Below, one piece after another: positions 7,333 through 63,395 of a stretch of 64,000 bases of DNA. This DNA comes from Isoperla grammatica (lineage: Eukaryota > Arthropoda > Insecta > Plecoptera > Perlodidae). The notes beneath the pieces were generated by a model. The model saw nothing but the letters and a program-made list of their open reading frames with translations, did no database searches and was not told the DNA's origin. The position numbers and the translations under genes were made by a program. Each line of letters begins with the position of its first letter. Position 1 is the first letter of the stretch. The stretch is from the NCBI GenBank assembly GCA_945910005.1, contig OX246747.1, positions 18,928,686-18,992,685 of the forward strand. The letters are read 5' to 3'.

Positions 7333-10300
7333 CCAACGGCTCTCGTCTGCACTCACCGGCGTTCACTCCCTCACTGGTCTCGCGCTCTCAGCCAGGCAAC
7401 GGCTCCCGTCTGCACTCACCGGCGTTCACTCCCTCACTGGTCTCGCGCTCTCAGCCAGGTAACGGCTCCCGTCTGCACTCACCGGCGTTCACTCCCTCAC
7501 TGGTCTCGCGCTCTCAGCCAGGCAACGGCTCCCGTCTGCACTCACCGGCGTTCACTCCCCCACTGGTCTCGCGCTCTCAGCCAGGCAACGGCTCCCGTCT
7601 GCACTCACCGGCGTTCACTCCCTCACTGGTCTCGCGCTCTCAGCCAGGCAACGGCTCCCGTCTGCACTCACCGGCGTTCACTCCCCCACTGGTCTCGCGC
7701 TCTCAGCCAGGCAACGGCTCCCGTCTGCACTCACCGGCGTTCACTCCCTCACTGGTCTCGTGCTCTCAGCCAGGCAACGGCTCCCGTCTGCACTCACCGG
7801 CGTTCACTCCCCCACTGGTCTCGCGCTCTCAGCCAGGCAACGGCTCCCGTCTGCACTCACCGGCGTTCACTCCCTCACTGGTCTCGCGCTCTCAGCCAGG
7901 CAACGGCTCCCGTCTGCACTCACCGGCGTTCACTCCCTCACTGGTCTCGCGCTCTCAGCCAGGCAACGGCTCCCATCTGCACTCACCGGCGTTCACTCCC
8001 TCACTGGTCTCGCGCTCTCAGCCAGGCAACGGCTCCCATCTGCACTCACCGGCGTTCACTCCCTCACTGGTCTCGCGCTCTCAGCCAGGCAACGGCTCCC
8101 ATCTGCACTCACCGGCGTTCACTCCCCCACTGGTCTCGCGCTCTCAGCCAGGCAACGGCTCCCTTCTGCACTCACCGGCGTTCACTCCCTCACTGGTCTC
8201 GCGCTCTCAGCCAGGCAACGGCTCCCGTCTGCACTCACCGGCGTTCACTCCCTCACTGGGACCGGCACTGGTCTCGCGCTCTCAGCCAGGCAACGGCTCC
8301 CATCTGCACTCACCGGCGTTCACTCCCTCACTGGTCTCGCGCTCTCAGCCAGGCAACGGCTCCCATCTGCACTCACCGGCGTTCACTCCCTCACTGGTCT
8401 CGCGCTCTCAGCCAGGCAACGGCTCCCGTCTGCACTCACCGGCGTTCACTCCCTCACTGGTCTCGCGCTCTCAGCCAGGCAACGGCTCCCATCTGCACTC
8501 ACCGGCGTTCACTCCCTCACTGGTCTCGCGCTCTCAGCCAGGCAACGGCTCCCGTCTGCACTCACCGGCGTTCACCCCCCCACTGGTCTCGCGCTCTCAG
8601 CCAGGCAACGGCTCCCGTCTGCACTCACCGGCGTTCACTCCCTCACTGGTCTCGCGCTCTCAGCCAGGCAACGGCTCCCGTCTGCACTCACCGGCGTTCA
8701 CTCCCTCACTGGTCTCGCGCTCTCAGCCAGGCAACGGCTCCCATCTGCACTCACCGGCGTTCACTCCCTCACTGGTCTCGCGCTCTCAGCCAGGCAACGG
8801 CACCCGTCTGCACTCACCGGCGTTCACTCCCTCACTGGTCTCGCGCTCTCAGCCAGGCAACGGCTCCCGTCTGCACTCACCGGCGTTCACTCCCTCACTG
8901 GTCTCGCGCTCTCAGCCAGGCAACGGCTCCCGTCTGCACTCACCGGCGTTCACTCCCTCACTGGTCTCGCGCTCTCAGCCAGGCAACGGCTCCCGTCTGC
9001 ACTCACCGGCGTTCACTCCCTCACTGGTCTCGCGCTCTCAGCCAGGCAACGGCTCCCATCTGCACTCACCGGCGTTCACTCCCTCACTGGTCTCGCGCTC
9101 TCAGCCAGGCAACGGCTCCCGTCTGCACTCACCGGCGTTCACTCCCTCACTGGTCTCGCGCTCTCAGCCAGGCAACGGCTCCCGTCTGCACTCACCGGCG
9201 TTCACTCCCTCACTGGTCTCGCGCTCTCAGCCAGGCAACGGCTTTCATCTGCACTCACCGGCGTTCACTCCCTCACTGGTCTCGCGCTCTCAGCCAGGCA
9301 ACGGCTCCCGTCTGCACTCACCGGCGTTCACTCCCTCACTGGTCTCGCGCTCTCAGCCAGGCAACGGCTCCCGTCTGCACTCACCGGCGTTCACTCCCTC
9401 ACTGGTCTCGCGCCCTCAGCCAGGCAACGGCTCCCATCTGCACTCACCGGCGTTCACTCCCTCACTGGTCTCGCGCTCTCAGCCAGGCAACGGCTCCCGT
9501 CTGCACTCACCGGCGTTCACTCCCTCACTGGTCTCGCGCTCTCAGCCAGGCAACGGCTCCCGTCTGCACTCACCGGCGTTCACTCCCTCACTGGTCTCGC
9601 GCTCTCAGCCAGGCAACGGCTCCCATCTGCACTCACCGGCGTTCACTCCCTCACTGGTCTCGCGCTCTCAGCCAGGCAACGGCTTCCGTCTGCACTCACC
9701 GGCGTTCACTCCCTCACTGGTCTCGCGCTCTCAGCCAGGCAACGGCTCCCATCTGCACTCACCGGCGTTCACTCCCCCACTGGTCTCGCGCTCTCAGCCA
9801 GGCAACGGCTCCCATCTGCACTCACCGGCGTTCACTCCCTCACTGGTCTCGCGCTCTCAGCCAGGCAACGGCTCCCGTCTGCACTCACCGGCGTTCACTC
9901 CCTCACTGGTCTCGCGCTCTCAGCCAGGCAACGGCTCCCGTCTGCACTCACCGGCGTTCACTCCCTCACTGGTCTCGCGCTCTCAGCCAGGCAACGGCTC
10001 CCGTCTGCACTCACCGGCGTTCACTCCCTCACTGGTCTCGCGCTCTCAGCCAGGCAACGGCTCCCGTCTGCACTCACCGGCGTTCACTTGGTCTGCGCTC
10101 TCAGCCAGGCAACGGCTCCCGTCTGCACTCACCGGCGTTCACTCCCTCACTGGTCTCGCGCTCTCAGCCAGGCAACGGCTCCCGTCTGCACTCACCGGCG
10201 TTCACTCCCTCACTGGTCTCGCGCTCTCAGCCAGGCAACGGCTCCCGTCTGCACTCACCGGCGTTCACTCCCTCACTGGGACCGGCACTGGTCTCGTGCT

Positions 10301-13300
10301 CTCAGCCAGGCAACGGCTCCCATCTGCACTCACCGGCGTTCACTCCCTCACTGGTCTCGCGCTCTCAGCCAGGCAACGGCTCCCGTCTGCACTCACCGGC
10401 GTTCACTCCCTCACTGGTCTCGCGCTCTCAGCCAGGCAACGGCTCCCGTCTGCACTCACCGGCGTTCACTCCCCCACTGGTCTCGCGCTCTCAGCCAGGC
10501 AACGGCTCCCGTCTGCACTCACCGGCGTTCACTCCCTCACTGGTCTCGCGTCTCAGCCAGGCAACGGCTCCCGTCTGCACTCACCGGCGTACACTCCCTC
10601 ACTGGTCTCGCGCTCTCAGCCAGGCAACGGCTCCCGTCTGCACTCACCGGCGTTCACTCCCTCACTGGTCTCGCGCTCTCAGCCAGGCAACGGCTCCCGT
10701 CTGCACTCACCGGCGTTCACTCCCTCACTGGGACCGGCACTGGTCTCGCGCTCTCAGCCAGGCAACGGCTCCCGTCTGCACTCACCGGCGTTCACTCCCT
10801 CACTGGTCTCGTGCTCTCAGCCAGGCAACGGCTCCCGTCTTCACTCACCGGCGTTCACTCCCTCACTGGGACCGGCACTGGTCTCGCGCTCTCAGCCAGG
10901 CAACGGCTCCCGTCTGCACTCACCGGCGTTCACTCCCTCACTGGTCTCGCGCTCTCAGCCAGGCAACGGCTCCCGTCTGCACTCACCGGCGTTCACTCCC
11001 TCACTGGTCTCGCGCTCTCAGCCAGGCAACGGCTCCCGTCTGCACTCACCGGCGTTCACTCCCTCACTTGTCTCGCGCTCTCAGCCAGGCAACGGCTCCC
11101 GTCTGCACTCACCGCGTTCACTCCCACACTCGTCGCGCTCTCAGCCAGGCAACGGCTCCCGTCTGCACTCACAGGCGTTCACTCCCTCACTGGGACCGGC
11201 ACTGGTCTCGTACTCTCAGCCAGGCAACGGCTCCCGTCTGCACTCACCGGCGTTCACTCCCTCACTGGTCTCGCGCTCTCAGCCAGGCAACGGCTCCCGT
11301 CTGCACTCACCGGCGTTCACTCCCCCACTGGTCTCGCGCTCTCAGCCAGGCAACGGCTCCCGTCTGCACTCACCGGCGTTCACTCCCCCACTGGTCTCGC
11401 GCTGTCAGCCAGGAAACGGCTCCCGTCTGCACTCACCGGCGTTCACTCCCTCACTGGTCTCGCGCTGTCAGCCAGGAAACGGCTCCCGTCTGCACTCACC
11501 GCGTTCACTCCCACACTCGTCGCGCTCTCAGCCAGGCAACGGCTCCCGTCTGCACTCACCCGCGTTCACTCCCTCACTGGTCTCGCGCTCTCAGCCAGGC
11601 AACGGCTCCCGTCTGCACTCACCGGCGTTCACTCCCTCACTGGGACCGGCACTGGTCTCGCGCTCTCAGCCAGGCAACGGCTCCCGTCTGCACTCACCGG
11701 CGTTCACTCCCTCACTGGGACCGGCACTGGTCTCGCGCTCTCAGCCAGGCAACGGCTCCCGTCTGCACTCACTGGCGTTCACTCCCTCACTGGGACCGGC
11801 ACTGGTCTCGCGCTCTCAGCCAGGCAACGGCTCCCGTCTGCACTCACCGGCGTTCACTCCCTCACTGGTCTCGCGCTCTCAGCCAGGCAACGGCTCCCGT
11901 CTGCACTCACCGGCGTTCACTCCCTCACTGGTCTCGCGCTCTCAGCCAGGCAACGGCTCCCGTCTGCACTCACCGGCGTTCACTCCCTCACTGGGACCGG
12001 CACTGGTCTCGCGCTCTCAGCCAGGCAACGGCTCCCGTCTGCACTCACCGGCGTTCACTCCCTCACTGGTCTCGCGCTCTCAGCCAGGCAACGGCTCCCG
12101 TCTGCACTCACCGGCGTTCACTCCCTCACTGGTCTCGCGCTCTCAGCCAGGCAACGGCTCCCGTCTGCACTCACCGGCGTTCACTCCCTCACTGGGACCG
12201 GCACTGGTCTCGCGCTCTCAGCCAGGCAACGGCTCCCGTCTGCACTCACCGGCGTTCACTCCCTCACTGGGACCGGCACTGGTCTCGCGCTCTCAGCCAG
12301 GCAACGGCTCCCGTCTGCACTCACCGGCGTTCACTCCCTCACTGGTCTCGCGCTCTCAGCCAGGCAACGGCTCCCGTCTGCACTCACTGGCGTTCACTCC
12401 CTCACTGGTCTCGCGCTCTCAGCCAGGCAACGGCTCCCGTCTGCACTCACCGGCGTTCACTCCCTCACTGGTCTCGCGCTCTCAGCCAGGCAACGGCTCC
12501 CGTCTGCACTCACCGGCGTTCACTCCCTCACTGGTCTCGCGCTCTCAGCCAGGCAACGGCTCCCGTCTGCACTCACCGGCGTTCACTCCCTCACTGGTCT
12601 CGCGCTCTCAGCCAGGCAACGGCTCCCGTCTGCACTCACCGGCGTTCACTCCCTCACTGGTCTCGCGCTCTCAGCCAGGCAACGGCTCCCATCTGCACTC
12701 ACCGGCGTTCACTCCCTCACTGGTCTCGCGCTCTCAGCCAGGCAACGGCTCCCGTCTGCACTCACCGGCGTTCACTCCCTCACTGGTCTCGCGCTCTCAG
12801 CCAGGCAACGGCTCCCGTCTGCACTCACAGGCGTTCACTCCCTCACTGGTCTCGCGCTCTCAGCCAGGCAACGGCTCCCGTCTGCACTCACCGGCGTTCA
12901 CTCCCTCACTGGGACCGGCACTGGTCTCGCGCTCTCAGCCAGGCAACGGCTCCCGTCTGCACTCACCGGCGTTCACTCACTCACTGGTCTCGCGCTCTCA
13001 GCCAGGCAACGGCTCCCGTCTGCACTCACCGGCGTTCACTCCCTCACTGGTCTCGCGCTCTCAGCCAGGCAACGGCTCCCGTCTGCACTCACCGGCGTTC
13101 ACTCCCTCACTGGGACCGGCACTGGTCTCGCGCTCTCAGCCAGGCAACGGCTCCCGTCTGCACTCACCGGCGTTCACTCCCTCACTGGTCTCGCGCTCTC
13201 AGCCAGGCAACGGCTCCCGTCTGCACTCACCGGCGTTCACTCCCTCACTGGTCTCGCGCTCTCAGCCAGGCAACGGCTCCCGTCTGCACTCACCGGCGTT

Positions 13301-14491
13301 CACTCCCTCACTGGTCTCGCGCTCTCAGCCAGGCAACGGCTCCCGTCTGCACTCACCGGCGTTCACTCCCCCACTGGTCTCGCGCTCTCAGCCAGGCAAC
13401 GGCTCCCGTCTGCACTCACCGGCGTTCACTCCCTCACTGGTCTCGCGCTCTCAGCCAGGCAACGGCTCCCATCTGCACTCACCGGCGTTCACTCCCTCAC
13501 TGGTCTCGCGCTCTCAGCCAGGCAACGGCTCCCGTCTGCACTCACCGGCGTTCACTCCCTCACTGGTCTCGCGCTCTCAGCCAGGCAACGGCTCCCATCT
13601 GCACTCACCGGCGTTCACTCCCTCACTGGTCTCGCGCTCTCAGCCAGGCAACGGCTCCCATCTGCACTCACTGGCGTTCACTCCCTCACTGGTCTCGCGC
13701 TCTCAGCCAGGCAACGGCTCCCATCTGCACTCACCGGCGTTCACTCCCTCACTGGTCTCGCGCTCTCAGCCAGGCAACGGCTCCCATCTGCACTCACCGG
13801 CGTTCACTCCCTCACTGGTCTCGCGCTCTCAGCCAGGCAACGGCTCCCATCTGCACTCACCGGCGTTCACTCCCTCACTGGTCTCGCGCTCTCAGCCAGG
13901 CAACGGCTCCCATCTGCACTCACCGGCGTTCACTCCCCCACTGGTCTCGCGCTCTCAGCCAGGCAACGGCTCCCGTCTGCACTCATCGGCGTTCACTCCC
14001 TCACTGGTCTCGCGCTCTCAGCCAGGCAACGGCTCCCGTCTGCACTCACCGGCGTTCACTCCCTCACTGGTCTCGCGCTCTCAGCCAGGCAACGGCTTCC
14101 GTCTGCACTCACCGGCGTTCACTCCCTCACTGGTCTCGCGCTCTCAGCCAGGCAACGGCTCCCGTCTGCACTCACCGGCGTTCACTCCCTCACTGGTCTC
14201 GCGCTCTCAGCCAGGCAACGGCTCCCGTCTGTACTCACCCGCGTTCACTCCCTCACTGGTCTCGCGCTCTCAGCCAGGCAACGGCTCCCGTCTGCACTCA
14301 CCGGCGTTCACTCCCCCACTGGTCTCGCGCTCTCAGCCAGGCAACGGCTCCCGTCTGCACTCACCGGCGTTCACTCCCTCACTGGGACCGGCACTGGTCT
14401 CGCGCTCTCAGCCAGGCAACGGCTCCCGTCTGCACTCACCGGCGTTCACTCCCTCACTGGGACCGGCACCGGTCTCGCGCTCTCAGCCAGG
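7333..14491. repeat. 63-bp minisatellite, about 110 copies, downstream of and overlapping the end of NUDT16
   Basis: The unit on the plus strand runs CTCGCGCTCTCAGCCAGGCA, then ACGGCTCCCG, TCTGCACTCA and CCGGCGTTCACTCCCTCACTGGT. Some units carry a 12-bp insertion containing GGACCGGCAC, making 75 bp. Because 63 and 75 are multiples of 3, long open frames exist on the plus strand, broken by small indels near 10088 and 10553; these are not genes. On the minus strand each unit carries GCCGGTGAGTGCAG, which resembles a 5' splice site. The proximal unit supplies the last residues and the TGA stop of NUDT16 (14446-14448). High identity between copies suggests recent expansion or homogenisation. Confidence 0.98.
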
Positions 14492-17600: not shown

Positions 17601-20600
17601 AAATGAGCCTGTATTTTTCCTGCTTCCAATGCAGAAGGTCCCGGGTTCAAATCCCGCTTCAGGCAGAAGTTTTTAACTTCTTATGTGGATTCAATTCCAT
17701 TACTTCTTGGCTTAGAAATAAGTAAACGGTGACTTTGGAGCCGTCCTAGCAACAAAGCACTCAATAAATTCAAAGTTGTTCTGAATCGGCCTTGTTGATT
17801 CTGGCATTTGTCCGCAGGTGTCCGCACTGTCCAATCACTGATTCATATGTTTCGTATTTGAAATATCGATCTTTGATTGGTTATCGCTCACTCGTCGATG
17901 GTGTTCAAAGCCTACAGGGTTGGTTTAGTCACTTTAAATTTAAGTCCCCCACTGCAAATCAGTTTAGTTACTGAGTGGGTAGACTCTAAATGTGAATTTA
18001 TTTATTTATTTTATTTATAGTTTGGCTAATTAAGTTTGGTGGATGATTACTAATTAGACATCCCGATTTATATTTTTAATTTTATTTAATTTTTTTTTAC
18101 TTAGTAGGGTAGGCCTACTTATTACCCAGGGGTAACTGCGGGTATTGTGAATGGGTACTCGGGTCTTAAAAAAAGTTGGGTTTCGTCATCCCTAGGCTAA
18201 TTGCAATGTAAAAGGTTTAAGTGCGTGAGAACTATTTTAATTCATTACAAAAGAAAGATGACAACAGCAATGTTTCGCTCGGAAACACGGCATTACCTGC
18301 TGGCAAAACATCTCCATAGATTTGAAATAATCGAATAGAATGCATGCAAATTGTGTAATGACGGAGTGCAGGACAGCTTACACTTCCACGCACTAAACCG
18401 AAGGAAATGACCGACAGAATGGCGGAGGCATGGACAGAAATGAGTGGGAGGCATAAGCCGCCCAGGCTAGACGTGCGATGACTATAAAGAAGATGCGGCA
18501 TAAGAAAACAACACCTTTACAAGGCAGTAGTTAGATGATTGATCTAGACAAGATCATGCTTTAAATAAATGTACATGCATAATAATACTAGGAACAACTT
18601 AGGCATACAGATTGCTACTTTAGTACGGTACATTGTTCTTCAAGCATAGGTATTAAGTTGCTCTTTGACCCTACCCTAGATACATGCATAGTAATGAGGC
18701 TAACACACATGATTGGCCAACCTTGTACAAGTTTGTGCGTGATGGATAAGTAGGTCCCTAGATGCTCGGGCACACGCATGCATGCATACAGAGGAAAATG
18801 ACATTAGTAACAGCTGACCCTTTGACCTTCGAAGGGCTTTTCAAGCCAGTTTTCAAAGTACCTACTTCAACTGCTAAGTTAGTAGAGCTAGTACACTGAT
18901 GTAAGGACTTCACTTTCTTGCATTTCATTATAAAATCTCAGTTTTCCAACTGTCCCAAAACACAGCAATTTTAAAGTGAGCATGTAACAATTTAATAACA
19001 GACTGCGAATAAACAAGTACAGGCTAAAGAAAAAAATAACAGCAATGTAGGCTATAAATTCTAAAAATATCAATACGGGTGCATCTCAATCTTTTGAACC
19101 TAAGCCTCACTCTACAATCTTACAAGTGCTCACAGTCTCACCAATGTTCTCAACCTGTTGAAGAGTACGCCCGTACATTACGGACCATGCGTACGGCCAT
19201 TACGGAGTAATCACGTAGGCCTACACTTACGGGCGATAGTTTTGGCTCCAGTAATACGTAGTTAAGCCGGACGTTTTCAGAACCAGTAATAGAGTGACAT
19301 ACGCACAGCACCTACTGCCATTTATTGGCAGTGATTTGCAGCTTCACCAGAGTTTCAAAGTATGATTCTGTAGCCTCTAGCAATTTTTTTTTAGACGACT
19401 CAAGTCTGGGGTGGCAAATAACAGGTGGTTGTGCATTCAAAGACGACATTCTTACATCGTCGTAAACACGTTATGGCCAGGGAATTGTGATTTGTGAATG
19501 CGACTATAATGAAGTGATGTAAGTGATTATGATGATATTGATTATTCTAGTTCCCTAAAAATACGCACTCCGGCAGGTGAGGCGGCCATTTAAAACCCTC
19601 TCTTAAACAGGTAAAAAATCATTTTTGTTTTATAGGCCTATGCAATAAAAAAAGTCACTACGCACTATTAAATATTAACAACCAAAGTGATTGGACTCTG
19701 CCAACGTTATACCGGTATATGTAGGGCCTATGTTTGCTAGAGCGTCGTATGCTTCACAGGCTTAGGCCTACTTAAGACTCATCATGGAACGTAACGTGAC
19801 ATGCCTGGGCCAAAACGTATTAACAGCTGTAATTAATTCCTTTGAGATAAAACGAAATTAAATAATAAAAAACTAATCAGTTGGCATCTCACTTGTATTT
19901 GCTTCGTGCACCACAGTTCGAGAAACACTGAACTAGGTATTCAGTGAATAAGATACACAACACACCAAGCCATTCTAAGCTAGGCCTACCTTTTCCTTAA
20001 TTAGTGGATTGTATTTAAATAATGTCAAACAGGCAACTAAACTTTAGGAACAGGAACCTTTTCACCAGCCCAAACATAACTTTGCTTACCATGTCACCAT
20101 TCAATAACTCTGCAAGCACTAAGTGGGAAGGGAAAAACAAACGTGTGAACTAGTCTAATCTAAGCTCACCTCAGTTCCATAATCGTAGGCACTGGAGGAG
20201 TTACGCTCGATGTGTCTTATCTCATCCATTGGAGCTTCGGAGGCGTAGAAATGAAGGCAGAGCTTTTTGGAAGGGCTGTAGTGCGTGATAACGTGATCGC
20301 CATCCTTGACAGAGAAGCGATTCAGGTCGACGCCCATCTCTTCAACGAGCTCTCGGTTTAGGCCGAAGACGGTGGTTTCTCCGTCGTCGACAAGACCCCC
20401 AGGGAAGCCCAGGTAGCCGTCGAATCTCATCTGCATCTGCGGGAAATATTACAACCACGTAAACAAGTGGGGAAGCCAAAGTAGCCGTCAAATCTCATCT
20501 GCATCTGCAGGAACTATGGGGAAAGAGGAAATGGATGACCTTTGGCAACTCTTGGTACATAGGCCTACAGTAGGCCGTGATCGGAATCAATTTTGGACAG

Positions 20601-27905: not shown

Positions 27906-28455
27906 ATGAAATTGTCGTGTGTTATTGTATTCCTTTTATCTATAAACAAGTACTGTGCGGAGGAAATATTTGATACTAAAGGAAAAGATGAAACTAGTGA
28001 CTGTGGTTGTAAGACAAATAGGGTTAGGCCTACAGAGGAAGACACTGTCAAAGTCGTAAAGGAAGCAACAGGTAACAAGTACTCTCAAGCAGCAAACATT
28101 GAAAGTACTTATCCACGAACAAACAAAATGGTTTTTATAAAAGGAGGTAGATTTAAAATGGGCACGGATAAACCCGTGTTCGTTCCGGACGGTGAAGGGC
28201 CCGCACGTACGGTGGACGTGTCAAGCTTTTACATGGACGTCTACGAAGTGAGCAACGCAGAGTTTGAGTTGTTCGTGAACGCATCAAAATACAAGACTGA
28301 AGCGGAAACATTCGGAGACTCGTTTGCGTTCGAAGCCCTCCTGAGCGAGGAGACCAAGGCTACTGTAACGCAGGCTGTCGCTGCGGCTCCCTGGTGGCTG
28401 CCGGTCAAGGGATGTGATTGGAGACACCCTGAAGGACCGGACTCAAATATAAAAG
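27906..28455 (+). CDS. SUMF1: SUMF1 exon 1
   Basis: ATG at 27906, preceded by AGAAG; open for 183 codons plus one base. The exon must end at 28455 (AAAAG then GTTTCA) to join exon 2 in phase 1; the donor is GT but weak. Unusually large first exon carrying the signal peptide and the first third of the FGE domain. Confidence 0.9.
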
Positions 28456-31400
28456 GTTTCACTTCAACTCAATTTAAAAACCATTTTATTCTCAACTCTT
28501 TTTTTACAGTTAGGTAGGTACCTGTAATCATAGTTTTCATAATTAAAAATACAAACCTACTTCAGTAGGCCTACCTAGGTTTAGTAATATTAGGCTTATA
28601 TGTAAGCCTAATTGCCATCAGTAGAGATGTGACCATCTGTACATTAGCACAAAATAACTAAGGTTGAAGTGAAGATTAGGTAATAGGCCTAGGCGTACAA
28701 TACGTCAAGCAACCACATAGGCCTAGGCTACATTACCGGTACATATAATATATTCAGTGGCATACGCTGGTAATTGTATCCTCATATGCATTTGGTGCTC
28801 GCTTTTTCCAGTCATAAACGTCAATCATGCCAATGAGTATTCTAGGTGCTATATGGATGCACAGCTGTAGTCAATAAAGTTTATCTTCTTTTCATACAGC
28901 TGCATTTTTGGCGTACTGGGCCAAACAAATTTCCAAAACAAATTTGAACTTACTACGGGGAAAATCTTACTCTTGTAGGGAATGTTACAACTCGGGGTTT
29001 AACTGTAGTTCTTTTCATCGACCAATCATAAGTATCAGTATCGGTCCAGCTCTAGAATACACAGACTTTGATACTGATATTCTGTTAAATAAAATAAGTC
29101 ACACTTGTGTTGCATTCTGTTGACGACTGGGCTCGACCAGGCTTTTCAAGTTTGATCGGATTGTGGTCGGCGTCCGGACTTGTGGGTCTCTCGACAATGA
29201 ACCGCCGCGGTCGTGATAGAAGGCGGTGTTCTTACAATGGTGAGGCCTTGCTGCGCTATTTACCTTCCTGCACCTCTGTGAGTCATCAATGTAGGTAGTC
29301 ATAATGTCTCGATCTTCCACCTGGAATTGCTTTAAACCACACTTTAGTATTCCAAAGAACCTTCTACAACATGTTCAGATTGAAATCTCCGCACGTTCTC
29401 AAGCCATGACCGGCCCAAGACTTCGGGCTTTTGCACGCGACTGAAAAAGAACGGAACGCTACGAACCGAGTGTGTTAGTCGACCGGAGAAGCTTACGGAC
29501 TACTTTGGTCTGGGCTGGTGGAGCTCGGTTGACCTTACAGAATGCAGCCTCTGAAATCAATCACTAATGACATGACCCATACACTCGGCTTAGGGATGGG
29601 AAAAAACAGCTATTTTCTTGAACATTTAAACCCATGAACTTAACTTATTTAAACAGTTAACCGCCCCCGAAAAAATCTGTTACGGTCCCTTGTAGGCCTA
29701 CTCCCTCCCTCACAGCTGCAAAGAAGACACTTGAAAACACTTGTAAAGTCTTGACAAGTCAAACACATTTCAAGATAAGTTGGAGCTGTGATGAATGAGG
29801 GTCATTTACACTTCATTTAGGATAGAATTTGAATGAATTATTACCCCCCCCCCCCCCCCCCCCGGTGCTTTAGATACCGACACAACCAAAACATTTTGAG
29901 AATAGAAACAATATACTAGTTTAGGGATCAAACGGATGTCAAAATCACGATTTTTATGATAGGCCTATTCCTATTTATTTTTCCTATTTATTTTAAACTT
30001 GGACTAGCCCTGTGATAAATGTAATAACCTCTAACCCACCACTTCAAGTTTAATCGTTTAACCTTCCCATCCCTCTGGGCTACACCGTGATCTCACCTTT
30101 GTTCTCGCAGACCGAATGGACCATCCGGTCGTTCACATCTCGTGGAACGACGCCGTAGAGTTCTGCGAGTGGGCGGGGAAACGACTTCCGACGGAAGCGG
30201 AGTGGGAGTTCGCGTGTCGCGCCGGCCTCAACGACCGTCTGTTTCCGTGGGGGAACAAGATCACTCCGCACGGGGAGCACTGGTGAGTTGGCGGCACTGG
30301 TGAGTTGGCAGCACTGGTGAGTTGGCAGCACTGGTGAGTTGGTGGCACTGGTGAGTTGGTGGCACTGGTGAGTTGGCGGCACTGGTGGGTTGGCCACAGT
30401 AGGTAACACTCAAGTGTCACAAAACTGTAACACATTAAACTGTCCATCAAAATGAAAATACATTGATCTTGGGTAATTTCAATACATATTATCTAACGGT
30501 ATTTTGTTCACGATTCTTTTAATCAACTGGTATGGCGAGCACATGTGTACCGGTAGAGTAAAACTGTCAGAGTGCTAGATCAAAGTGTGTTCTTTACCCG
30601 CGGCCTTCATAACCAGCCTGTATTTCTTGCAAAACTTTGCAAGAAGTGAAGGTTTAAGGCCCATTCACGATCAACTTATGCCTTTAACTTATACCGCTAA
30701 CTTAAAGTCGTGAACTTGGGATTTGATCGCACTGTTCATAATGGCAACTTACAGCAACTTAGATGATTTTTTCAACCAATCACAACACTTTTCACGATGG
30801 CCATCTTGATGTAAAGTTGTATCATTTTGAAGCTTAGGTGGCTGTGGTTGATTGTCAACAACGCTGCGTGATCTAAAATCCTAACCTCACTTATGTCAGT
30901 TTAATATGGACAATGAAGAGGATATGCAAATAATAGCATTGCTTTGCTTAACGGGAGCAGCAATAGGCGTTCGTTACATTCGTCAAAGACAAAGACCTAG
31001 GCGTAGATGGGCAGTTAGGCCTATTAACCAAAGGAGGCAGCAACAAGGGGACCATGGAAATCTATTGCAGGAAATGAGGTTGGGTGACCAGGAGCAGTTC
31101 TTTTTGTATACAAGGATGACTCCTTCAAGATATGATCACCTACTGTCTTTAGTTGGACCATCGCTTAAAAAAAACAGCAATTGTGAGTCATTGTCGGCTG
31201 ATTTTCGACTTGCTGTCACATTGAGGTAATAATATATTTTAGACCCTTGGGCCTAGGCTAGGGCCTAGGCTAAGCAATGAAAATACAGGCCTAGGCTTTT
31301 TTAATTTTCATTGCTTAGCCTAGGCCTAGGCTAAGCAATGAAAGTACACAATGTACAAATAAAACTTATCTAATAATGATTAGTTTCTTCAATTTAGGTT

Positions 31401-34400
31401 TCTTGCCACTGGCGATTCTCTCCAAAGTATCGCATGGAGTTTCAGAATAGGCAAGTCAACATGCTGTGTCATTATACATGAAACAGCGCTTGCCATTTGG
31501 GACAACCTAGCTCCAATATACTTACGGGAACCTACCCAAGAAAACTATTTAGATGTTGCTAGAGGGTTTTTAGATCGCTGGAACCTTCCTAATTGTGTAG
31601 GGGCAGTGGATGGTAAGCACGTAGTTATCCAGGCCCCCCCCAACTCAGGTTCTCAATACTTCAATTATAAGAACCAGTTCAGCATAGTGCTTCTCGCAGT
31701 ATGCGATTCAAATTACACTTTTACACACGTGGACATTGGGGCCTATGGTTCACAAAGCGACGGAGGCATTTTCAGACTGTCTGAATTTGGCCAACGATTG
31801 AACAATGGAAGTCTTCCATTACCTCCGCCGACACAATTACCATTATCTCAAGATGACCCATTTCCACACTACATGGTCGGTGATGAAGCATTTGCTTTAG
31901 AAGCCAACATGATGCGTCCTTACCCAGGAAAGAATCTTTCACGTGTCAAACGTGTTTATAACTATAGACTGTCTAGGGCCAGACGCACGATAGAGAATGC
32001 TTTCGGTATTCTTGTAGCACGGTGGAGAGTGTTTCATCGTGTGATCATTGCCAAGCCTGAAAACGTTGATGGAATCATCAAGGCAACTGTTTGTCTCCAT
32101 AACTTTCTAAAAATATTAGATGAAAAATCAAACAATAAAAATTACTGCCCTACAGCATTCTCAGATCGAGAAGACTGTGGTCAGGTATCACTGGGCAATT
32201 GGAGAGAAGAACGTCCAAGTAGCAATTGCACTCTACAGTCTCTCAATACGTTGCAACGGCTGCGGTTGGGTTCACGAAATGCAGCCCTAAGCTCCACTGC
32301 TTTGAGAGACAAACTTGCTGGGTACCTAGATTCACCCATAGGTGCAGTTCCATGGCAAATGCAATACGTAAACAGAGGGTTGAACAATGCATGAAAGAAT
32401 GCAATGATTAATGTAGTAAATTTTTTAATTGCAGTCTTTTAGATCATAATCCTTATACTAATCATTATAATATTATATTTAAATTAGGTAGGCCTACCTA
32501 CATCAGATACATGTTATTATATTCTTGCAATTTCAAGTGTAGGGGGCCTACTGCTAAACTAAATACATTATTACACTCCTTTACGTTGCCTTTCATTTCT
32601 TTTTGCCTTATTAATAAGACCCAAAATTTCATACTGGAGATCTTCCTTGATATCCTGGGGTAATGGTGACATTTGTAGCGAAACTAGCTTCGCAAATGCA
32701 TCATCTTCATCTGGCGGTGGCACTGGCCCACGGCTGGCAACTTTTTCCGCGATTTCAGTAAGGCGTTTCATTTCCGAGGTAACTCCACCGTCAGACCGAC
32801 GGCTGTTTCGTGAACCACGTCCACAATTTTTTGATGTTGATTGTGTTTGTGATACGTCTAGCTGTTGAGGTGACGTAGACGATAAAGTTACAGATGGCGA
32901 AGGTGTACTGAAAGCTGGCAGAGAGCACGACGAATCATCTTCGACTATTATTGGTAACTCGACCATCTGGTTGTCAATCTCCACCCAACTAAAATTTAAG
33001 ACAAAACTGTATCTATGGATTCACCCATACATTTGGAGGGAACTGTGCCCTAGCCTAGTCGTGGTCTAGTGGCTTGTACTGTCACAAGTAGAGTAAATAA
33101 ATGATTTCACTAGCTGTAATAGGCCTAGGCCTAGAATGAAATATTACATTTAGCCTGCTTGTATTGTAATAATGGTCCTACATTCTCATCTAAGCTATCA
33201 CCACTCAACATCTAGAATTGTAGGCCTAGGCCTAGATTTAAATAGTAGGGCGAACTGTAAGAAGTTTGTTTTTACTTACTATGTAGTCGGGGGGTTCTGA
33301 ACTTCATCCGCTAGGCCTATCTGGCTAAAATTGCCAACAGTTTTTCTGGGTTTGATGTGCTCATCAAGAAATGAGCACACTTTAAACAGTGGCCACTTTG
33401 GGTCGTCCACCTTGCCTGCACCGCTCACGGTCAATTTTCCATGGTCCCGTTTCTCTTTATTATAGCGCTCTCTTAACTGGCGAATTCTTGTTTCACAAGC
33501 CAAAGCTACAAAATCAATAGGGTACCTGCTATTAGTAATTAAATCAGTTGTGCATAATATAGGTAGGCCTAGGCCTATATCATCAAATAATTTGATCATT
33601 AGATAATAACATATTTGGCAATTGGAATCATTAAAGTATTTTGAGGTTATGGCTAGGCCTACTCACCCATAGAGAAATAAAACAGGTACTCACCAGAACT
33701 TTTCATTACTGACCCAATAGCAAGCCAAGCATTCTCTTTGTAAATGCGGTCTTTATGTTCAACCATGTGTTTGTTGTACAAAGCTGGCCTTCTCGCATAC
33801 TCATTTAATAAAGCCTCGTCAAACGAATGCTGCTGATCCATAGCAAAATCTTGTAGGCCTTCAAACTAAATGTAAACAAGACGCGACGAAAGACGCGCGG
33901 ATTTTAAGGTCTGTGATTGGTTCTTTTCTTAAGTTTAAGGTGTTAAGTTTGGAGTTTGCAAACTTTGTAATATTTCTGCGGAAATATTCTACGTAAAATG
34001 CGCCTAAGTTTTGTCATGAACAACAGCTAACAAATCCATAAGCCAAACATTGTAAGTTAGCCGCGTAAGTTGTAAGTTAAAGGCATAAGTTGATCGTGAA
34101 TGGGCCTTTATAAAGTAGCTATATCAACGGTACCGACCCCTGAAAAGTTGCAAACTAAATATTTTGCCTCTTTCAGAAGTCAATGTTTCAATTTCAAACT
34201 TAAAATATTGTATGGTAGTACTTAGGCTATGGATACTGTAGGGATGACATCAGGTACTCGGGTACCCGGCTCCAAATATTACCCGGAGCCGTTTTTCGGG
34301 TCCGGGTAATTTTTTATTCGTTTCTAGGCTAAATTAGCCAACTTGCATTCGTTACTGTTTGTTCTTTGTTTAACATTTTGGTGAACATTCTGGCTAATAC

Positions 34401-37400
34401 TTATTATTATTCTATTTATTTTCCTATTTATTTTTCCTATTTTCTATTTATTTTCCTTAAAATATCATGTTTTATGTACGTGCTTCAGTTGTGTATTGAG
34501 AAATGGTTGTTTTTACTCGACGTGATTACTGCAGGCATTCCGAGAGGCTAACCGAGCGGGCAACGTGCATATCATTTGTCCCTTGTCTTCGCACCCCGCG
34601 CACTTGACAAGGCCTAACGACGATTTTCAAATCAAGCCTACACATCGAAAAATACGTTTTCAGGATCCGGGTACCCTGGTAATATGAGAACTGGAACCGG
34701 TTCCAAATTTTATTACCCGATGTCATCCCTATTAGATAGACAACTGAAAAAGGGTGGACAAACAGCCCCCCTGGCCAGCGCAACACCAGGTATCGATCTG
34801 TTAGGATTGCTTTAAAATGTTTCTAAACTGTCCCAAAAGTAAATCAAAATATGTCATCTTCTACAGAATACAGTGGTTCTTTCTTATGAATGTTTCTTAG
34901 TTCCGATAAATATTTCCATTTTTCAAATAAGCGTTTGTAATGTGATGTTGCTGTGCAAACACCTTTCACACCTAGGCCTAATTAAGAACATTTAAAAAAA
35001 CAGAAATGTTTATTGGAATAAAGGAACATTGATTAGAAAGCGCACTAAATTCTCTACAGGATGATATATTTTGATTTTCTTTTGGGACAGTTTAAACACA
35101 TTTTATAATAATTTGAACGGACCGAGATCGGGAGTTTCCCAAGGTAGGCGAAGGGAGTCTTAATATGCAACACACGACCCTGAGCGCTCTCGTATTGACA
35201 GGATGAACATCTGGCAGGGGAAGTTCCCGGACCGCGACACGGGAGAAGACGGCTTCGTCGGAACGGCTCCCGTCACATCGTACCCCAGCAACACGTTCGG
35301 ACTGCACAACGTCATAGGGAACGTCTGGGAGTGGACCAGTGACTGGTGGCAGACTAAACACACGACCCAGCCTTCCACAGACCCGGTGAGTGTATTCTAT
35401 TGTATTGTATTGATTGGAACGTCCAGCAACACGTTCGGACTGCACAACGTCATAGGGAACGTCTGGGAGAGGACCAGTGACTGGTGGCAGACTAAACACA
35501 CGACCCAGCCTTCCACAGACCCGGTGAGTGTATTGTATTGTATTGTATTGATTGGAACGTCACCTCGTACCCCAGCAACACGTTCGGACTGCACAACGTC
35601 ATAGGGAACGTCTGGGAGTGGACCAGTGACTGGTGGCAGACTAAACACACGACCCAGCCTTCCACAGACCCGGTGAGTGTATTCTATTGTATTGTATTGA
35701 TTGGAACGTCCAGCAACACGTTCGGACTGCACAACGTCATAGGGAACGTCTGGGAGTGGACCAGTGACTGGTGGCAGACTAAACACTCGACCCAGCCTTC
35801 CACAGACCCGGTGAGTGTATTCTATTGTATTGTATTGATTGGAACGTCCAGCAACACGTTCGGACTGCACAACGTCATAGGGAACGTCTGGGAGTGGACC
35901 AGTGACTGGTGGCAGACTAAACACTCGACCCAGCCTTCCACAGACCCGGTGAGTGTATTCTATTGTATTGTATTGATTGGAACCTCACCTCGTACCCCAG
36001 CAACACGTTCGGACTGCACAACGTCATAGGGAACGTCTGGGAGTGGACCAGTGACTGGTGGCAGACTAAACACTCGACCCAGCCTTCCACAGACCCGGTG
36101 AGTGTATTCTATTGTATTGTATTGATTGGAACGTCACCTCGTACCCCAGCAACACGTTCGGACTGCACAACGTCATAGGGAACGTCTGGGAGTGGACCAG
36201 TGACTGGTGGCAGACTAAACACTCGACCCAGCCTTCCACAGACCCGGTGAGTGTATTCTATTGTATTGTATTGATTGGAACCTCACCTCGTACCCCAGCA
36301 ACACGTTCGGACTGCACAACGTCATAGGGAACGTCTGGGAGTGGACCAGTGACTGGTGGCAGACTAAACACACGACCCAGCCTTCCACAGACCCGGTGAG
36401 TGTATTCTATTGTATTGTATTGATTGGAACGTCCAGCAACACGTTCGGACTGCACAACGTCATAGGGAACGTCTGGGAGTGGACCAGTGACTGGTGGCAG
36501 ACTAAACACACGACCCAGCCTTCCACAGACCCGGTGAGTGTATTCTATTGTATTGTATTGATTGGAACGTCACCTCGTACCCCAGCAACACGTTCGGACT
36601 GCACAACGTCATAGGGAACGTCTGGGAGTGGACCAGTGACTGGTGGCAGACTAAACACACGACCCAGCCTTCCACAGACCCGGTGAGTGTATTCTATTGT
36701 ATTGTATTGATTGGAACGTCACCTCGTACCCCAGCAACACGTTCGGACTGCACAACGTCATAGGGAACGTCTGGGAGTGGACCAGTGACTGGTGGCAGAC
36801 TAAACACTCGACCCAGCCTTCCACAGACCCGGTGAGTGTATTCTATTGTATTGTATTGATTGGAACGTCACCTCGTACCCCAGCAACACGTTCGGACTGC
36901 ACAACGTCATAGGGAACGTCTGGGAGTGGACCAGTGACTGGTGGCAGACTAAACACTCGACCCAGCCTTCCACAGACCCGGTGAGTGTATTCTATTGTAT
37001 TGTATTGATTGGAACGTCCAGCAACACGTTCGGACTGCACAACGTCATAGGGAACGTCTGGGAGTGGACCAGTGACTGGTGGAAGACTAAACACTCGACC
37101 CAGCCTTCCACAGACCCGGTGAGTGTATTGTATTGTATTGTATTGATTGGAACGTCACCTCGAACCGCAGCAACACGTTTGTATGTTACTCAGGTCAGTT
37201 TAGTAAAAGTAATATTTAGTAATAATGTGTGCCCTTTTCTATCATCCTCTCAGCTACCCACAGCTGGAATATTTAGTGAACATTTTGTAATATTGTTTGT
37301 GTGTTTTCTATATGTTCTATACTATTTTGTTAGGATGATAAGACTATTGTATATTTTATTTTGTTATATTTTGTGGACTTGAAAATTTTGTAATATTTTG

Positions 37401-37998
37401 TTTGTACATATTAAACTTTTCTATGTTATAATTATTTTGTTTGGATGATAGATACCTTGTGTGTGGGGCATAATGTCCTTTTCTATCATTCTCCCAGCTT
37501 CCCACACCTGAAAATAGATAAGGACAATGACAATTTCTTCTGGCTTTTGGTACAGACAAAGGTGGTAAAGATATGTATGGTGATTTAGTATATTACTAAG
37601 TACGTACTAATAATCGATAAGTAGCACTTTGTATAGAACTAAATAAATAAATAAATTCACATTTAGAGTCTACCCACTCAGTAATAAAACTGATTTGTTT
37701 TCCTTTTCCGTTTTAATTTGTGCGTAAACATAATAGGCTAAACTAATAAAATAATAAAAGTAGTAACCTAAGCGGGCCGTATCTCTCTACTCATGTATCA
37801 CGTTGTTGTCCCCAGTATGGAGCACCTTCAGGGAGTGACAAGGTCAAGAAGGGAGGTTCCTACCTCTGCCACCAGAGCTACTGCTACCGCTACCGTTGTG
37901 CAGCCCGTAGTCAGAACACTCCCAACAGTTCGGCTGGTAACCTGGGACTCCGATGCGCCGCCTCCAAACTGCCAGAATACTTACGAGAACATACGTAG
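27906..37998 (+). CDS. SUMF1: SUMF1, formylglycine-generating enzyme, four exons
   Basis: Spliced CDS: 27906-28455, 30111-30282, 35202-35385, 37816-37998, giving 362 aa (human 374). Intron phases are 1, 2 and 0, and all join in frame. Known role: in the ER it oxidises a cysteine of sulfatases to formylglycine, activating all cellular sulfatases. Signal peptide at residues 1-18 ([16 protein letters not shown]). Conserved blocks: N-terminal [94 protein letters not shown]. The catalytic pair is present in exon 4 as C320 and C325 ([16 protein letters not shown]). Oddities: exon 2 and exon 3 ends are tandemly amplified, and a Harbinger transposon sits in intron 2. Confidence 0.95.
28456..29590 (+). 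other. SUMF1 intron 1, no gene
   Basis: Intronic sequence with several TAGGCCTA motifs and short open frames lacking family signatures. Confidence 0.5.
29592..30074. mobile_element. hAT-like MITE in SUMF1 intron 1, TIR AGGGATGGGAA
   Basis: AGGGATGGGAA at 29592 is the inverse of TTCCCATCCCT ending at 30074. Flanks CTCGGCTT and CTGGGCTA match at 6 of 8 positions. It contains a poly-C run (about 29845-29863). Its right end lies 36 bp before exon 2, so the exon 2 polypyrimidine tract begins immediately after it. Confidence 0.7.
30111..30282 (+). CDS. SUMF1: SUMF1 exon 2
   Basis: Acceptor GTTCTCGCAG ends at 30110; donor GTGAGT at 30283. It encodes [20 protein letters not shown] and the [10 protein letters not shown] block. 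Its donor is the first of seven tandem copies. Confidence 0.95.
30275..30400 (+). repeat. 17-bp tandem repeat of the SUMF1 exon 2 splice donor
   Basis: GCACTG|GTGAGTTGGCG recurs with period 17. GTGAGT occurs at 30283, 30300, 30317, 30334, 30351 and 30368, and a GTGGGT variant at 30385. Each unit also repeats the last exon bases GCACTG, so every unit is a potential donor; because 17 is not a multiple of 3, only the first keeps the known frame. Confidence 0.95.
30401..30653 (+). other. SUMF1 intron 2, before the Harbinger element
   Basis: No feature recognised. Confidence 0.4.
30906..32394 (+). CDS. Harbinger transposase (DDE_Tnp_4 / HARBI1-like)
   Basis: Two exons: 30906-31225 and 31398-32394, giving 438 aa; donor AG|GTAATA and acceptor AATTTAG|GTTTC join in frame. 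N-terminal basic stretch ([10 protein letters not shown]) then RPINQRR and [16 protein letters not shown], typical of the family's helix-turn-helix start. Catalytic DDE residues visible: D in GAVDGKHV, D in VGDEAF and E in [16 protein letters not shown]; also [14 protein letters not shown]. Known role: cuts and joins the element at TWA targets together with the companion protein. No stop or frameshift seen. Confidence 0.9.
31240..31345. repeat. TAGGCC-rich inverted repeat in the transposase intron
   Basis: GGCCTAGGCTAAGCAATGAA is followed by its complement TTCATTGCTTAGCCTAGG and then a third direct copy, all inside the 172-bp intron 31226-31397. It could form a stable hairpin in the pre-mRNA. 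Confidence 0.7.
32571..33841 (-). CDS. Harbinger companion protein (MADF/Myb-SANT-like), three exons
   Basis: Best model on the minus strand: 33841-33694, about 33568-33280, 32988-32571, about 284 aa. Exon 1 has [20 protein letters not shown] and AWLAIGS, exon 2 has [18 protein letters not shown]: together the tri-helical MADF/Myb-like fold. Exon 3 is a low-complexity Ser/Pro/Thr region and a C-terminal helix ([20 protein letters not shown]) like BESS/oligomerisation tails. The exon 2-3 junction (TA|T) keeps frame; the exon 1-2 acceptor is uncertain, with two AGs upstream of 33568 that both fit. Known role of this class: binds the transposon ends and brings the transposase to the nucleus. Confidence 0.8.
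34239..34731. mobile_element. hAT-like MITE, family H1, second copy (SUMF1 intron 2)
   Basis: Ends TAGGGATGACATC and GATGTCATCCCTA. The interior matches 15309-16323 over long stretches (CTCCAAATATTACCCGG, TTTTATGTACGTGCTTCAGT) but is about half the length. No clear target duplication. Confidence 0.85.
34809..35112. repeat. Palindromic MITE (family H3)
   Basis: AAACTGTCCCAAAAGTAAAT at the left pairs with the right-end complement AAACTGTCCCAAAAGAAAAT, arms about 85-100 bp. Related arms are found at 39385-39470 (plus) and 40155-40275 (inverted). It ends about 90 bp before SUMF1 exon 3. Confidence 0.75.
35202..35385 (+). CDS. SUMF1: SUMF1 exon 3
   Basis: Acceptor ATTGACAG ends at 35201; first donor GTGAGT at 35386. 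It encodes [19 protein letters not shown]...[20 protein letters not shown] and ends phase 0 at CCG. This is the only copy with the full 5' part of the exon. Confidence 0.95.
35290..37180 (+). repeat. Tandem array of SUMF1 exon 3 tail plus donor, 13 copies
   Basis: The segment from AACACGTTCGGACTG through ACAGACCCG|GTGAGT and a short TATTG-rich intron piece is repeated. Copies start at 35290, 35428, 35577, 35715, 35853, 36002, 36151, 36300, 36438, 36587, 36736, 36885 and 37023; a fragment at 37172 ends the array. Spacing is 138 bp (joint TCCAGCAACACG) or 149 bp (joint TCACCTCGTACCCCAGC). Copies differ at few bases, for example TGGGAGAGG in copy 2 (Trp to Arg) and GGAAGAC in copy 13. All 13 keep GTGAGT; the genuine 3' splice site exists only before copy 1, though CCCCAG|CAACACG could act as weak acceptors. 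Confidence 0.97.
37640..37700 (+). repeat. Dispersed repeat R2, copy 2
   Basis: AAATAAATAAATTCACATTT and AGAGTCTACCCACTCAGTAA match 42655-42735 and the complement of 17931-18015. It lies in SUMF1 intron 3. Confidence 0.75.
37816..37998 (+). CDS. SUMF1: SUMF1 exon 4 (catalytic cysteines)
   Basis: Acceptor GTTGTCCCCAG ends at 37815; 60 codons then TAG. It contains [16 protein letters not shown] with the two active-site cysteines (C320, C325 of this protein), [20 protein letters not shown] and a short C-terminal tail. Confidence 0.95.
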
Positions 37999-44713: not shown

Positions 44714-45750
44714 TTTGTAAGGCTCTTTCAAACATACTTGTGATACAATCTCCAACTGTTTGTAAGACCCCTTCAAATGCGCTAGTGATACAATCTCCAA
44801 CTGTTTGCAAGGCCCCTTCAAATGCGCTTGTGATACAATCTCCAACTGTTCGTAAGGCCCCTTCAAATGCGCTAGTGATACAATCTCCAACTGTTTGTAA
44901 GGCCCCTTCAAATGCGCTTGTGATACAATCTCCAACTGTTTGTAAGGCCCCTTCAAATGCGCTAGGGATACAATCTCCAACTGTTCGTAAGGCCCCTTCA
45001 AATGAGCTTGTGATACAATCTCCAACTGTTCGTAAGGCCCCTTCAAATGAGCTTGTGATACAATCTCCAACTGTTTGTAAGGCCCCTTCAAATGTGCTTG
45101 TGATACAATCTCCAACTGTTTGTAAGGCCCCTTCAAATGCGCTAGTGATACAATCTCCAACTGTTTGTAAGGCCCCTTCAAATGCGCTAGTGATACAATC
45201 TCCAACTGTTTGTAAGGCCCCTTCAAATGCGCTAGTGATACAATCTCCAACTGTTTGTAAGGCCCCTTCAAATGCACTAGTGATACAATCTCCAACTGTT
45301 TGTAAGGCCCCTTCAAATGCGCTAGTGATACAATCTCCAACTGTTTGTAAGGCCCCTTCAAATGTGCTTGTGATACAATCTCCAACTGTTTGTAAGGCCC
45401 CTTCAAATGAGCTTGTGATACAATCTCCAACTGTTTGTAAGGCCCCTTCAAATGAGCTTGTGATACAATCTCCAACTGTTTGTAAGGCCCCTTCAAATGA
45501 GCTTGTGATACAATCTCCAACTGTTTGTAAGGCCCCTTCAAATGAGCTTGTGATACAATCTCCAACTGTTCGTAAGGCCCCTTCAAATGCGCTAGTGATA
45601 CAATCTCCAACTGTTTGTAAGGCCACTTCAAATGTGCTTGTGATACAATCTCCAACTGTTTGTAAGGCCCCTTCAAATGTGCTTGTGATACAATCTCCAA
45701 CTGTTTGTAAGGCCCCTTCAAATGCGCTAGTGATACAATCTCCAACTGTG
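44714..45750. repeat. 45-bp minisatellite, about 23 copies
   Basis: The unit on the plus strand is AAGGCCCCTTCAAATGCGCT, AGTGATACAATCTCC, AACTGTTTGT. Variants are mainly GCGCTAG, GAGCTTG and GTGCTTG. As 45 is divisible by 3, several frames stay open (for example a repeated APSNALVIQSPTVCK on plus), giving ORFs of 350-390 codons on both strands; simultaneous openness in three frames argues against coding. Confidence 0.97.
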
Positions 45751-47157: not shown

Positions 47158-47234
47158 TAGTAGAGGAGCAAAAGGTAACATTTAAGTTCTCGTGCGCCTT
47201 TCGTGGAAGAGTATTGCGGTAAACGGTATTCTGT

Positions 47235-47995
47235 TACGGCATACCATACGAGTATTTTGCACCTACCTGGCAGATCCTGGCACGCTGCAGAGGGCGCCAG
47301 GAGCGTCGTGACGTCATAGACACGTTTTAATTAATTACTTTTGAACGGTTTATGTCACAGAAAATATCAAGAGGACAATTTTATGATGTCATACTAGATG
47401 AGAATTTATAATCTATCTGCCACATTCTGGCGGGCTGCAGAGGGCGCCAGGAGCGTCGTGACGTCATACACACGTTTGAACTAATAACGTTTGAACGGTT
47501 CATGTCACAGAAAATATGTAGGGTACAATTCTTCTATAAAATACTATACGAGTATTTTGCACCTACCTGGCACATCCTGGCACGCTGAAGAGGGCGCCAG
47601 GAGCGTCGTGACGTCATATACACGTTTGAACTAATAACGTTTGAACGGTTCATGTCACAGAAAATATGTAGGGTACAATTCTTCTATAAAATACTATACG
47701 AGTATTTTGCACCTACCTGGCACATCCTGGCACATCCTGGCACGCTGAAGAGGGCGCCAGGAGCGTCATGACGTCATAAACACGTTTTAATTAATAACGT
47801 TTGAACGGTTCATGTCACAGAAAATGTCAAGGGAACAATTCTATTACGAAATACTATTTGAGTATTTTGCATCTACTTGGCACATCGTGGCACACTGCAG
47901 AGGGCGTCAGGAGCGTCGTGACGTCATACACTTTTTCATTAATAACTTTTGAACGGTTCATATCACAGAAAATATCAGGAAGACAATATTATAGA
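47235..47995. repeat. 146-bp-class tandem repeats in left arm, five units
   Basis: GAGGGCGCCAGGAGCGTCGT (or close variants) at about 47291, 47438, 47590, 47750 and 47900, each followed by TGACGTCAT and by AACGGTT.ATGTCACAGAAA. TGACGTCA matches the CREB/ATF binding consensus. Confidence 0.9.
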
Positions 47996-50384: not shown

Positions 50385-50990
50385 ATTGTCTTCTTGATAT
50401 TTTCTGTGATATGAACCGTTCAAAAGTTATTAATGAAAAAGTGTATGACGTCACGACGCTCCTGGCGCCCTCTGCAGCGTGCCACGATATGCCAAGTAGA
50501 TGCAAATTACTCAAATAGTATTTCGTAATAGAATTGTTCCCTTGACATTTTCTGTGACATGAACCGTTCAAACGTTATTAATTAAAACGTGTTTATGACG
50601 TCATGACGCTCCTGGCGCCCTCTTCAGCGTGCCAGGATGTGCCAGGTAGGTGCAAAATACTCGTATAGTATTTTATAGAAGAATTGTACCCTACATATTT
50701 TCTGTGACATGAACCGTTCAAACGTTATTAGTTCAAACGTGTATATGACGTCGCGACGCTCCTGGCGCCCTCTGCAGCCCGCCAGAATGTGGCAGATAGG
50801 TTATAAATTCTCATCTTGTATGACATCATAAAGTTGTCCTCTTGATATTTTCTGTGACATAAACCGTTCAAAAGTAATTAATTAAAACGTGTCCATGACG
50901 TCACGACGCTCCTGGCGCCCTCTGCAGCGTGCCAGGATCTGCCAGGTAGGTGCAAAATACTCGTATGGTATGCCGTAACAGAATACCGTT
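50385..50990. repeat. 146-bp-class tandem repeats in right arm, four units
   Basis: Inverse of the left-arm array: ATGACGTCACGACGCTCCTG (or GACGTCGCGACGCTCC in one unit) at about 50445, 50595, 50747 and 50895. One unit fewer than the left arm. Confidence 0.9.
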
Positions 50991-63100: not shown

Positions 63101-63395
63101 CAGTAGGCATACAAGTAGTAACTGTGACGGTATCAAGCACCATCATACCCTGGGGATGATGAAGATACCTTCAGTAGACATACAAGTAGTAACTGTGACG
63201 GTATCAAGCACCATCATACCCTGGGGATGATGAAGATACCTTCAGTAGGCATACAAGTAGTAACTGTGACGGTATCAAGCACCATCATACCCTGGGGATG
63301 ATGAAGATACCTTCAGTAGGCATACAAGTAGTAACTGTGACGGTATCAAGCACCATCATACCCTGGGGATGATCAAGATACTTTCATGACAACTT
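63101..63395. repeat. 71-bp tandem repeat, about four copies
   Basis: CAGTAGGCATACAAGTAGTA, ACTGTGACGGTATCAAGCAC and CATCATACCCTGGGGATGAT recur at 63101, 63172, 63243 and 63314. Confidence 0.95.

Follow-up and report, generated by a model that had tools for sequence, protein, structure and literature searches.

The SUMF1 gene, which encodes the formylglycine-generating enzyme (FGE), carries a tandem array of 13 units across the junction of its third exon and third intron in a 64,000-nt stretch of contig OX246747.1 (hereafter the window). Each unit repeats the splice donor of exon 3. We think it very probable that the array is a mirage-type minisatellite, with the acceptor of exon 3 paired with the first donor and the remainder removed as intron. 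Judged by its structure, the array is not categorically new: arrays of this type have been described before, although the taxon looks new for them. A second array, with a shorter unit, lies at the donor of exon 2.

Anatomy of the exon 3 array

Exon-intron boundaries are those of our own gene model, which has four coding exons on the plus strand. A slash marks the splice junction.

27906..28455, plus strand: SUMF1 exon 1, coding from the ATG; donor AAG/GTTTCA; joins exons 2-4 in frame and matches human FGE
30111..30282, plus strand: SUMF1 exon 2; donor CTG/GTGAGT
35202..35385, plus strand: SUMF1 exon 3, 184 nt; acceptor TATTGACAG/G, donor 1 CCG/GTGAGT, in frame
35271..37179, plus strand: exon 3 tandem array, 13 units of 138 or 149 bp across the exon 3/intron 3 junction and a truncated 14th copy
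35386..37815, plus strand: intron 3 as spliced from donor 1, 2430 nt, including 1794 nt of array
37816..37998, plus strand: SUMF1 exon 4, with the stop codon and the cysteine-bearing segment

The four exons form an intact reading frame of 362 amino acids (aa). The best PDB match of the product is human FGE (1y1e, E 6.9e-143, aligned residues 73-357), in agreement with the gene name given by an initial annotation of this DNA. An FGE domain with the GGSYxCHxSYC segment is present. This segment, whose two cysteines we take to be the catalytic residues of the enzyme, is encoded by exon 4 and lies outside the exon 3 repeat. The initial annotation had described the repeat as encoding the core of the enzyme; the 10-residue segment it named is indeed inside the repeat, but with the cysteines in exon 4 the description is overstated. 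As modelled, the gene is otherwise intact despite the arrays.

Tandem Repeats Finder (TRF) describes the exon 3 array as having a period of 149, 13.2 copies, 94% matches and a score of 3328, which excludes a chance origin. In each unit the terminal part of SUMF1 exon 3 is followed by about 30 nt of intron. A 27-nt core has 13 exact matches, at 35287, 35425, 35574, 35712, 35850, 35999, 36148, 36297, 36435, 36584, 36733, 36882 and 37020, giving five spacings of 138 and seven of 149; the difference between the two is an 11-nt stretch immediately upstream of the core. The string CCGGTGAGTGTATT was found exactly 13 times, at places matching the cores, and the donor CCG/GTGAGTGTA is identical in all copies. 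The core and donor-string matches, together with the TRF result, bear out 13 copies, each with GTGAGT, at 138- or 149-bp spacing, as initially proposed. It is indeed the tail of the exon that is repeated, over about 115 nt (35271-35385) rather than the 96 first reported. The array terminates at 37179 with the truncated 14th copy.

The copies are near-identical, as had been claimed. When 98 nt of the exonic part were compared, only three columns varied and mean pairwise identity was 99.1%; yet two of the copies carry missense changes. One change is private to copy 2 (W to R) and another to copy 13 (Q to K), and these two copies have one intronic column variant in common. The third variable exonic column is an A/T difference arranged in blocks, AAATTTTAAATTT. 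With a shift of seven units the A/T blocks fit in 6/6 cases and the spacings in 2/5, a pattern that at most suggests block duplication within the array. From -20 to +10 the surroundings of the donor are the same in 13/13 copies. A genuine-looking acceptor (35201) precedes copy 1 only, which agrees with the earlier description; immediately upstream of the other 12 copies stands CCCCAG (seven copies) or GTCCAG (five).

Predicted consequences of donor choice at exon 3

Use of donor 1 gives the 184-nt exon 3 and the normal 362-aa protein. Use of donor 2 adds 46 residues in frame, exactly as had been predicted (138 = 46 x 3, with no stop), for a product of 408 aa. The remaining 11 of the 12 further donors (3-13) all yield proteins ending at 374 aa, as does retention of intron 3. 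Truncation beyond the first 149-bp joint had thus been correctly foreseen, with the stop 26 codons beyond donor 2 instead of about 20. With donors 2-13, exon 3 would measure 322-1917 nt. When one internal copy of 97 nt is inserted between exons 3 and 4, the protein stops at 319 aa in 12/12 cases; such internal exons had been anticipated with a CCCCAG acceptor, which only 7/12 internal copies have.

35425..35523, plus strand: exonic part of copy 2, with the W-to-R change; donor 2 at 35524

Products were compared in an alignment of 37 rows, namely the window sequence and 36 relatives hand-picked from 120 listed matches. The Trp replaced by Arg in copy 2 is Trp in 37/37 aligned enzymes, so the 408-aa product of donor 2 is probably dead. 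No insertion of more than one residue was seen near the exon 3 junction in the 36 aligned relatives; two of them carry a single added residue slightly ahead of it. The eight best SUMF1 matches (7998 candidates scored, 120 listed) comprise seven that we recognise as Polyneoptera and one other, at 64-68% identity. The seven are Periplaneta, Zootermopsis, Timema (twice), Gryllus, Diploptera and Bacillus. In a tree, which is poorly resolved elsewhere and has no cephalochordate SUMF1 among its rows, the window sequence adjoins two cockroaches and one termite with support of 91/80, below the tool's starred level. A polyneopteran insect host is likely but weakly supported. A cephalochordate origin, suggested at first by the mirage structure, is disfavoured by this tree and by the best SUMF1 and NUDT16 matches.

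By a simple calculation the exon 3 donor pairs with U1 at -8.9 kcal/mol, and 2.1% of 7801 GT sites (both strands, array copies included) pair at least as well. Donor strength as the cause of a choice for donor 1 is ruled out by the identity of the 13 donors from -20 to +10. The initial annotation had spoken of 13 equal donors: equal they are in sequence, but donor 1 alone makes a 184-nt exon with the real acceptor. In the gene model, donor 1 is set apart by its position: it is transcribed first and gives the 184-nt exon. We infer that position decides the choice.

A second array at the exon 2 donor

30277..30394, plus strand: exon 2 array, 17-bp unit, 6.9 copies (TRF), spanning the exon 2/intron 2 junction

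This array holds seven donors, at 30283, 30300, 30317, 30334, 30351, 30368 and 30385 (six GGTGAGT and one GGTGGGT). Any of the six further donors leads to an immediate TGA and a protein end at 241 aa. Arrays therefore enclose two of the three SUMF1 donors. The initial annotation was silent on the exon 2 array, as it was on the array in the neighbouring NUDT16 gene described below.

Relation to known systems

Published systems are described here from excerpts of the papers cited. Minisatellites across exon-intron boundaries, called mirages, are known in amphioxus Adh3 and in the globin genes Gb6 and Gb9 (PMC3087553); troponin C is also given as a case, and PGBD5 duplications have been likened to them (PMC3902484). 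Unit length is 10-72 bp for Adh3 and 150-160 bp for Gb6 (PMC3087553; PMC3902484). They show length instability, with inner units homogenised and the cluster boundaries excluded, and Gb6 haplotypes have six and three copies (PMC3087553). Adh3 data and reverse transcription PCR suggest that regular splicing is undisturbed (PMC3087553). The SUMF1 arrays share with these mirages a unit of minisatellite size within a gene (149 bp x 13.2; 17 bp x 6.9), a unit that crosses an exon-intron boundary with its splice signals (13/13 exon 3 and 7/7 exon 2 copies), and a host gene that appears intact, with an open protein of 362 aa. They differ from the amphioxus mirages in that SUMF1 has 13 copies at exon 3, a host that looks like a polyneopteran insect and two donors of one gene affected.

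The human IFI6 (6-16) minisatellite, reportedly shown by Turri et al. in 1995 to give multiple splice donor sites, is said to have a 12-bp unit in 26 copies. It resembles the SUMF1 arrays in that repeat units at an exon end act as donors, and the 17-bp exon 2 array is closest to it in form. Whereas two downstream units of IFI6 serve as donors and give isoforms (PMC4526556), 17 of the 18 downstream donors in the SUMF1 arrays truncate the protein.

Other systems are more distant. Tandem repeats at exon-intron boundaries, which may form introns, are reported in human segmental-duplication genes (PMC2812944); these paralogs average about four copies of 30-bp units, unlike the SUMF1 array. For Drosophila, tandem duplication of proto-splice sites is given as the probable source of gained introns (PMC2891723), and tandem duplication with splice signals is common to both cases; there, however, a duplicated exonic AG/GY makes a new intron, while in SUMF1 an existing donor is amplified inside an existing intron. 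In the earthworm, exon duplications are missing from transcripts (PMC12783039). No insect mirage minisatellite was found in the open-licence literature searched, taken as excerpts.

Interpretation of the exon 3 array

In the explanation we favour, the array would have begun as a segment across the exon 3/intron 3 boundary, multiplied by slippage or unequal exchange. The true acceptor of exon 3 would be paired by the spliceosome with donor 1, the earliest transcribed and the only one defining a 184-nt exon, and the 2.4-kb intron would carry away the other 12 donors. If donors 3-13 or internal copies were used now and then, the truncated products would be cleared by decay. The effect of the array is probably neutral to mildly costly, and the number of its copies probably varies. 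This account is favoured by the anatomy of the array, by the 362-aa enzyme obtained from donor 1 alone, by the truncated products of nearly all other donors and of the internal exons, by the lack of longer insertions in the relatives and by the amphioxus mirages, which are reported without disturbance of regular splicing (PMC3087553; PMC3902484). Against it, the identity of the 13 donors leaves the choice unexplained by sequence strength, and human IFI6 does use downstream repeat donors (PMC4526556), which makes a degree of leakage to donor 2 plausible in SUMF1.

Such a leak would become a function if the copies were real alternative donors, as in IFI6, with donor 2 used appreciably to make the 408-aa isoform and downstream truncations tuning the level of the enzyme. 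Donor 2 preserves the frame, the donor sequences are equal and IFI6 provides a precedent (PMC4526556). We nevertheless hold this to be improbable: copy 2 has Arg at the invariant Trp, the insertion duplicates a core segment and all but one of the other 12 donors truncate the protein. A protein search with the donor-2 junction region returned nothing at E 0.001 among 37 candidates scored, a weak negative since the species seems absent from the database (best SUMF1 identity 68%).

Assembly is prone to error in near-identical arrays, and an expansion of one or two real copies by misassembly was also the refutation named in the initial annotation. The copy number of 13 is that of the assembly. With private and shared variants distinguishing copies, two unit lengths, and a second array of a different unit in the same gene, we consider such an artefact very unlikely. 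Least likely of all is an intron gain under way, in which internal copies would become exons and the stretches between them introns: new introns have been shown or proposed to arise by tandem duplication (PMC2891723; PMC3087553), and internal copies of the 149-bp type have an AG with 10-11/16 pyrimidines upstream (7-14/16 in the five real acceptors), but copies after a 138-bp spacing have 7/16, equal to the weakest real acceptor, and inclusion of any one of the 12 internal copies truncates the protein.

Donor motifs in NUDT16 and across the window

The gene adjoining SUMF1 is NUDT16, for a U8 snoRNA-decapping enzyme, on the minus strand (best PDB match 6x7v, E 5.4e-39). Its protein matches are headed by Schistocerca, and the hemipteran Macrosteles is among the first five. 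The two genes stand head to head (14444-37998). Consecutive locus tags for NUDT16 and SUMF1 occur in Diploptera, Patella and Rhipicephalus, which suggests that the pair is old.

7334..14460, minus strand: 63-bp array, 110.7 copies (TRF), about 7.1 kb, beginning within the final NUDT16 codons and stop
20402..20517, minus strand: duplicated acceptor junction of NUDT16 exon 2, real copy at 20402-20449 and second copy at 20470-20517

The 63-bp array contains 105 GGTGAGT on the minus strand, the sense of NUDT16; this motif may possibly serve as the donor of an intron in the 3' untranslated region. The chance of a sense-strand GGTGAGT in a 63-nt stretch is about 0.003, from five occurrences outside arrays. 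At exon 2, whose first base is 20436, the junction copy lies 68 nt upstream with 90% identity over 48 nt. Of the 129 GGTGAGT in the 64-kb window, 124 fall within three arrays, each oriented as its host gene, and the two adjoining genes are affected at four places.

Enrichment of repeats at splice junctions was not significant, with 3 of the 10 junctions of our two gene models falling within local repeats, defined as same-strand matches of 30 nt or more at 85% identity or better and no further than 600 bp apart. The locally repeated share of the window is 20%, giving P 0.32, or 10% without the 7-kb array, giving P 0.07. If the NUDT16 array is taken as an eleventh junction, P falls to 0.018; we do not claim this value, which presupposes what it should show. 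The concentration of GGTGAGT in arrays invites a speculation that we rate as doubtful: that in this insect-like lineage strong 5' splice sites seed minisatellite growth, that boundary-spanning arrays are common genome-wide and that genes constantly out-compete decoy donors.

Other elements in the window

30656..34108, plus strand: Harbinger-like DNA transposon in SUMF1 intron 2, with 36-bp perfect terminal inverted repeats
44714..45749: array of a 45-bp unit, 23 copies (TRF), frames open on both strands
47228..47992 and 50393..50984: two arrays of a 150-bp unit, flanking open reading frames
63101..63386: array of a 71-bp unit, 4 copies (TRF)

The transposon, which we assign presumptively to the Harbinger family, has a DDE_Tnp_4 transposase open reading frame at 31384-32394 and a MADF/Myb-like one on the opposite strand; a TTA target duplication was noted by eye. 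A possible minus-strand acceptor lies close to the 45-bp array. The array was considered as a junction array and rejected, as inspection by eye places it about 30 nt upstream of that acceptor and not across it. The consensuses of the two 150-bp-unit arrays are, by eye, reverse complements, and these arrays are possibly the ends of one mobile element.

Significance

The SUMF1 arrays extend mirage-type minisatellites to what looks like an insect. Exon 3 offers a natural test of how the spliceosome chooses among 13 sequence-identical donors: with donor strength constant, any bias in cDNA must reflect position, transcription order or exon size. The exon 2 array provides a second natural case, at 17-bp spacing, in which each wrong donor stops translation at once.
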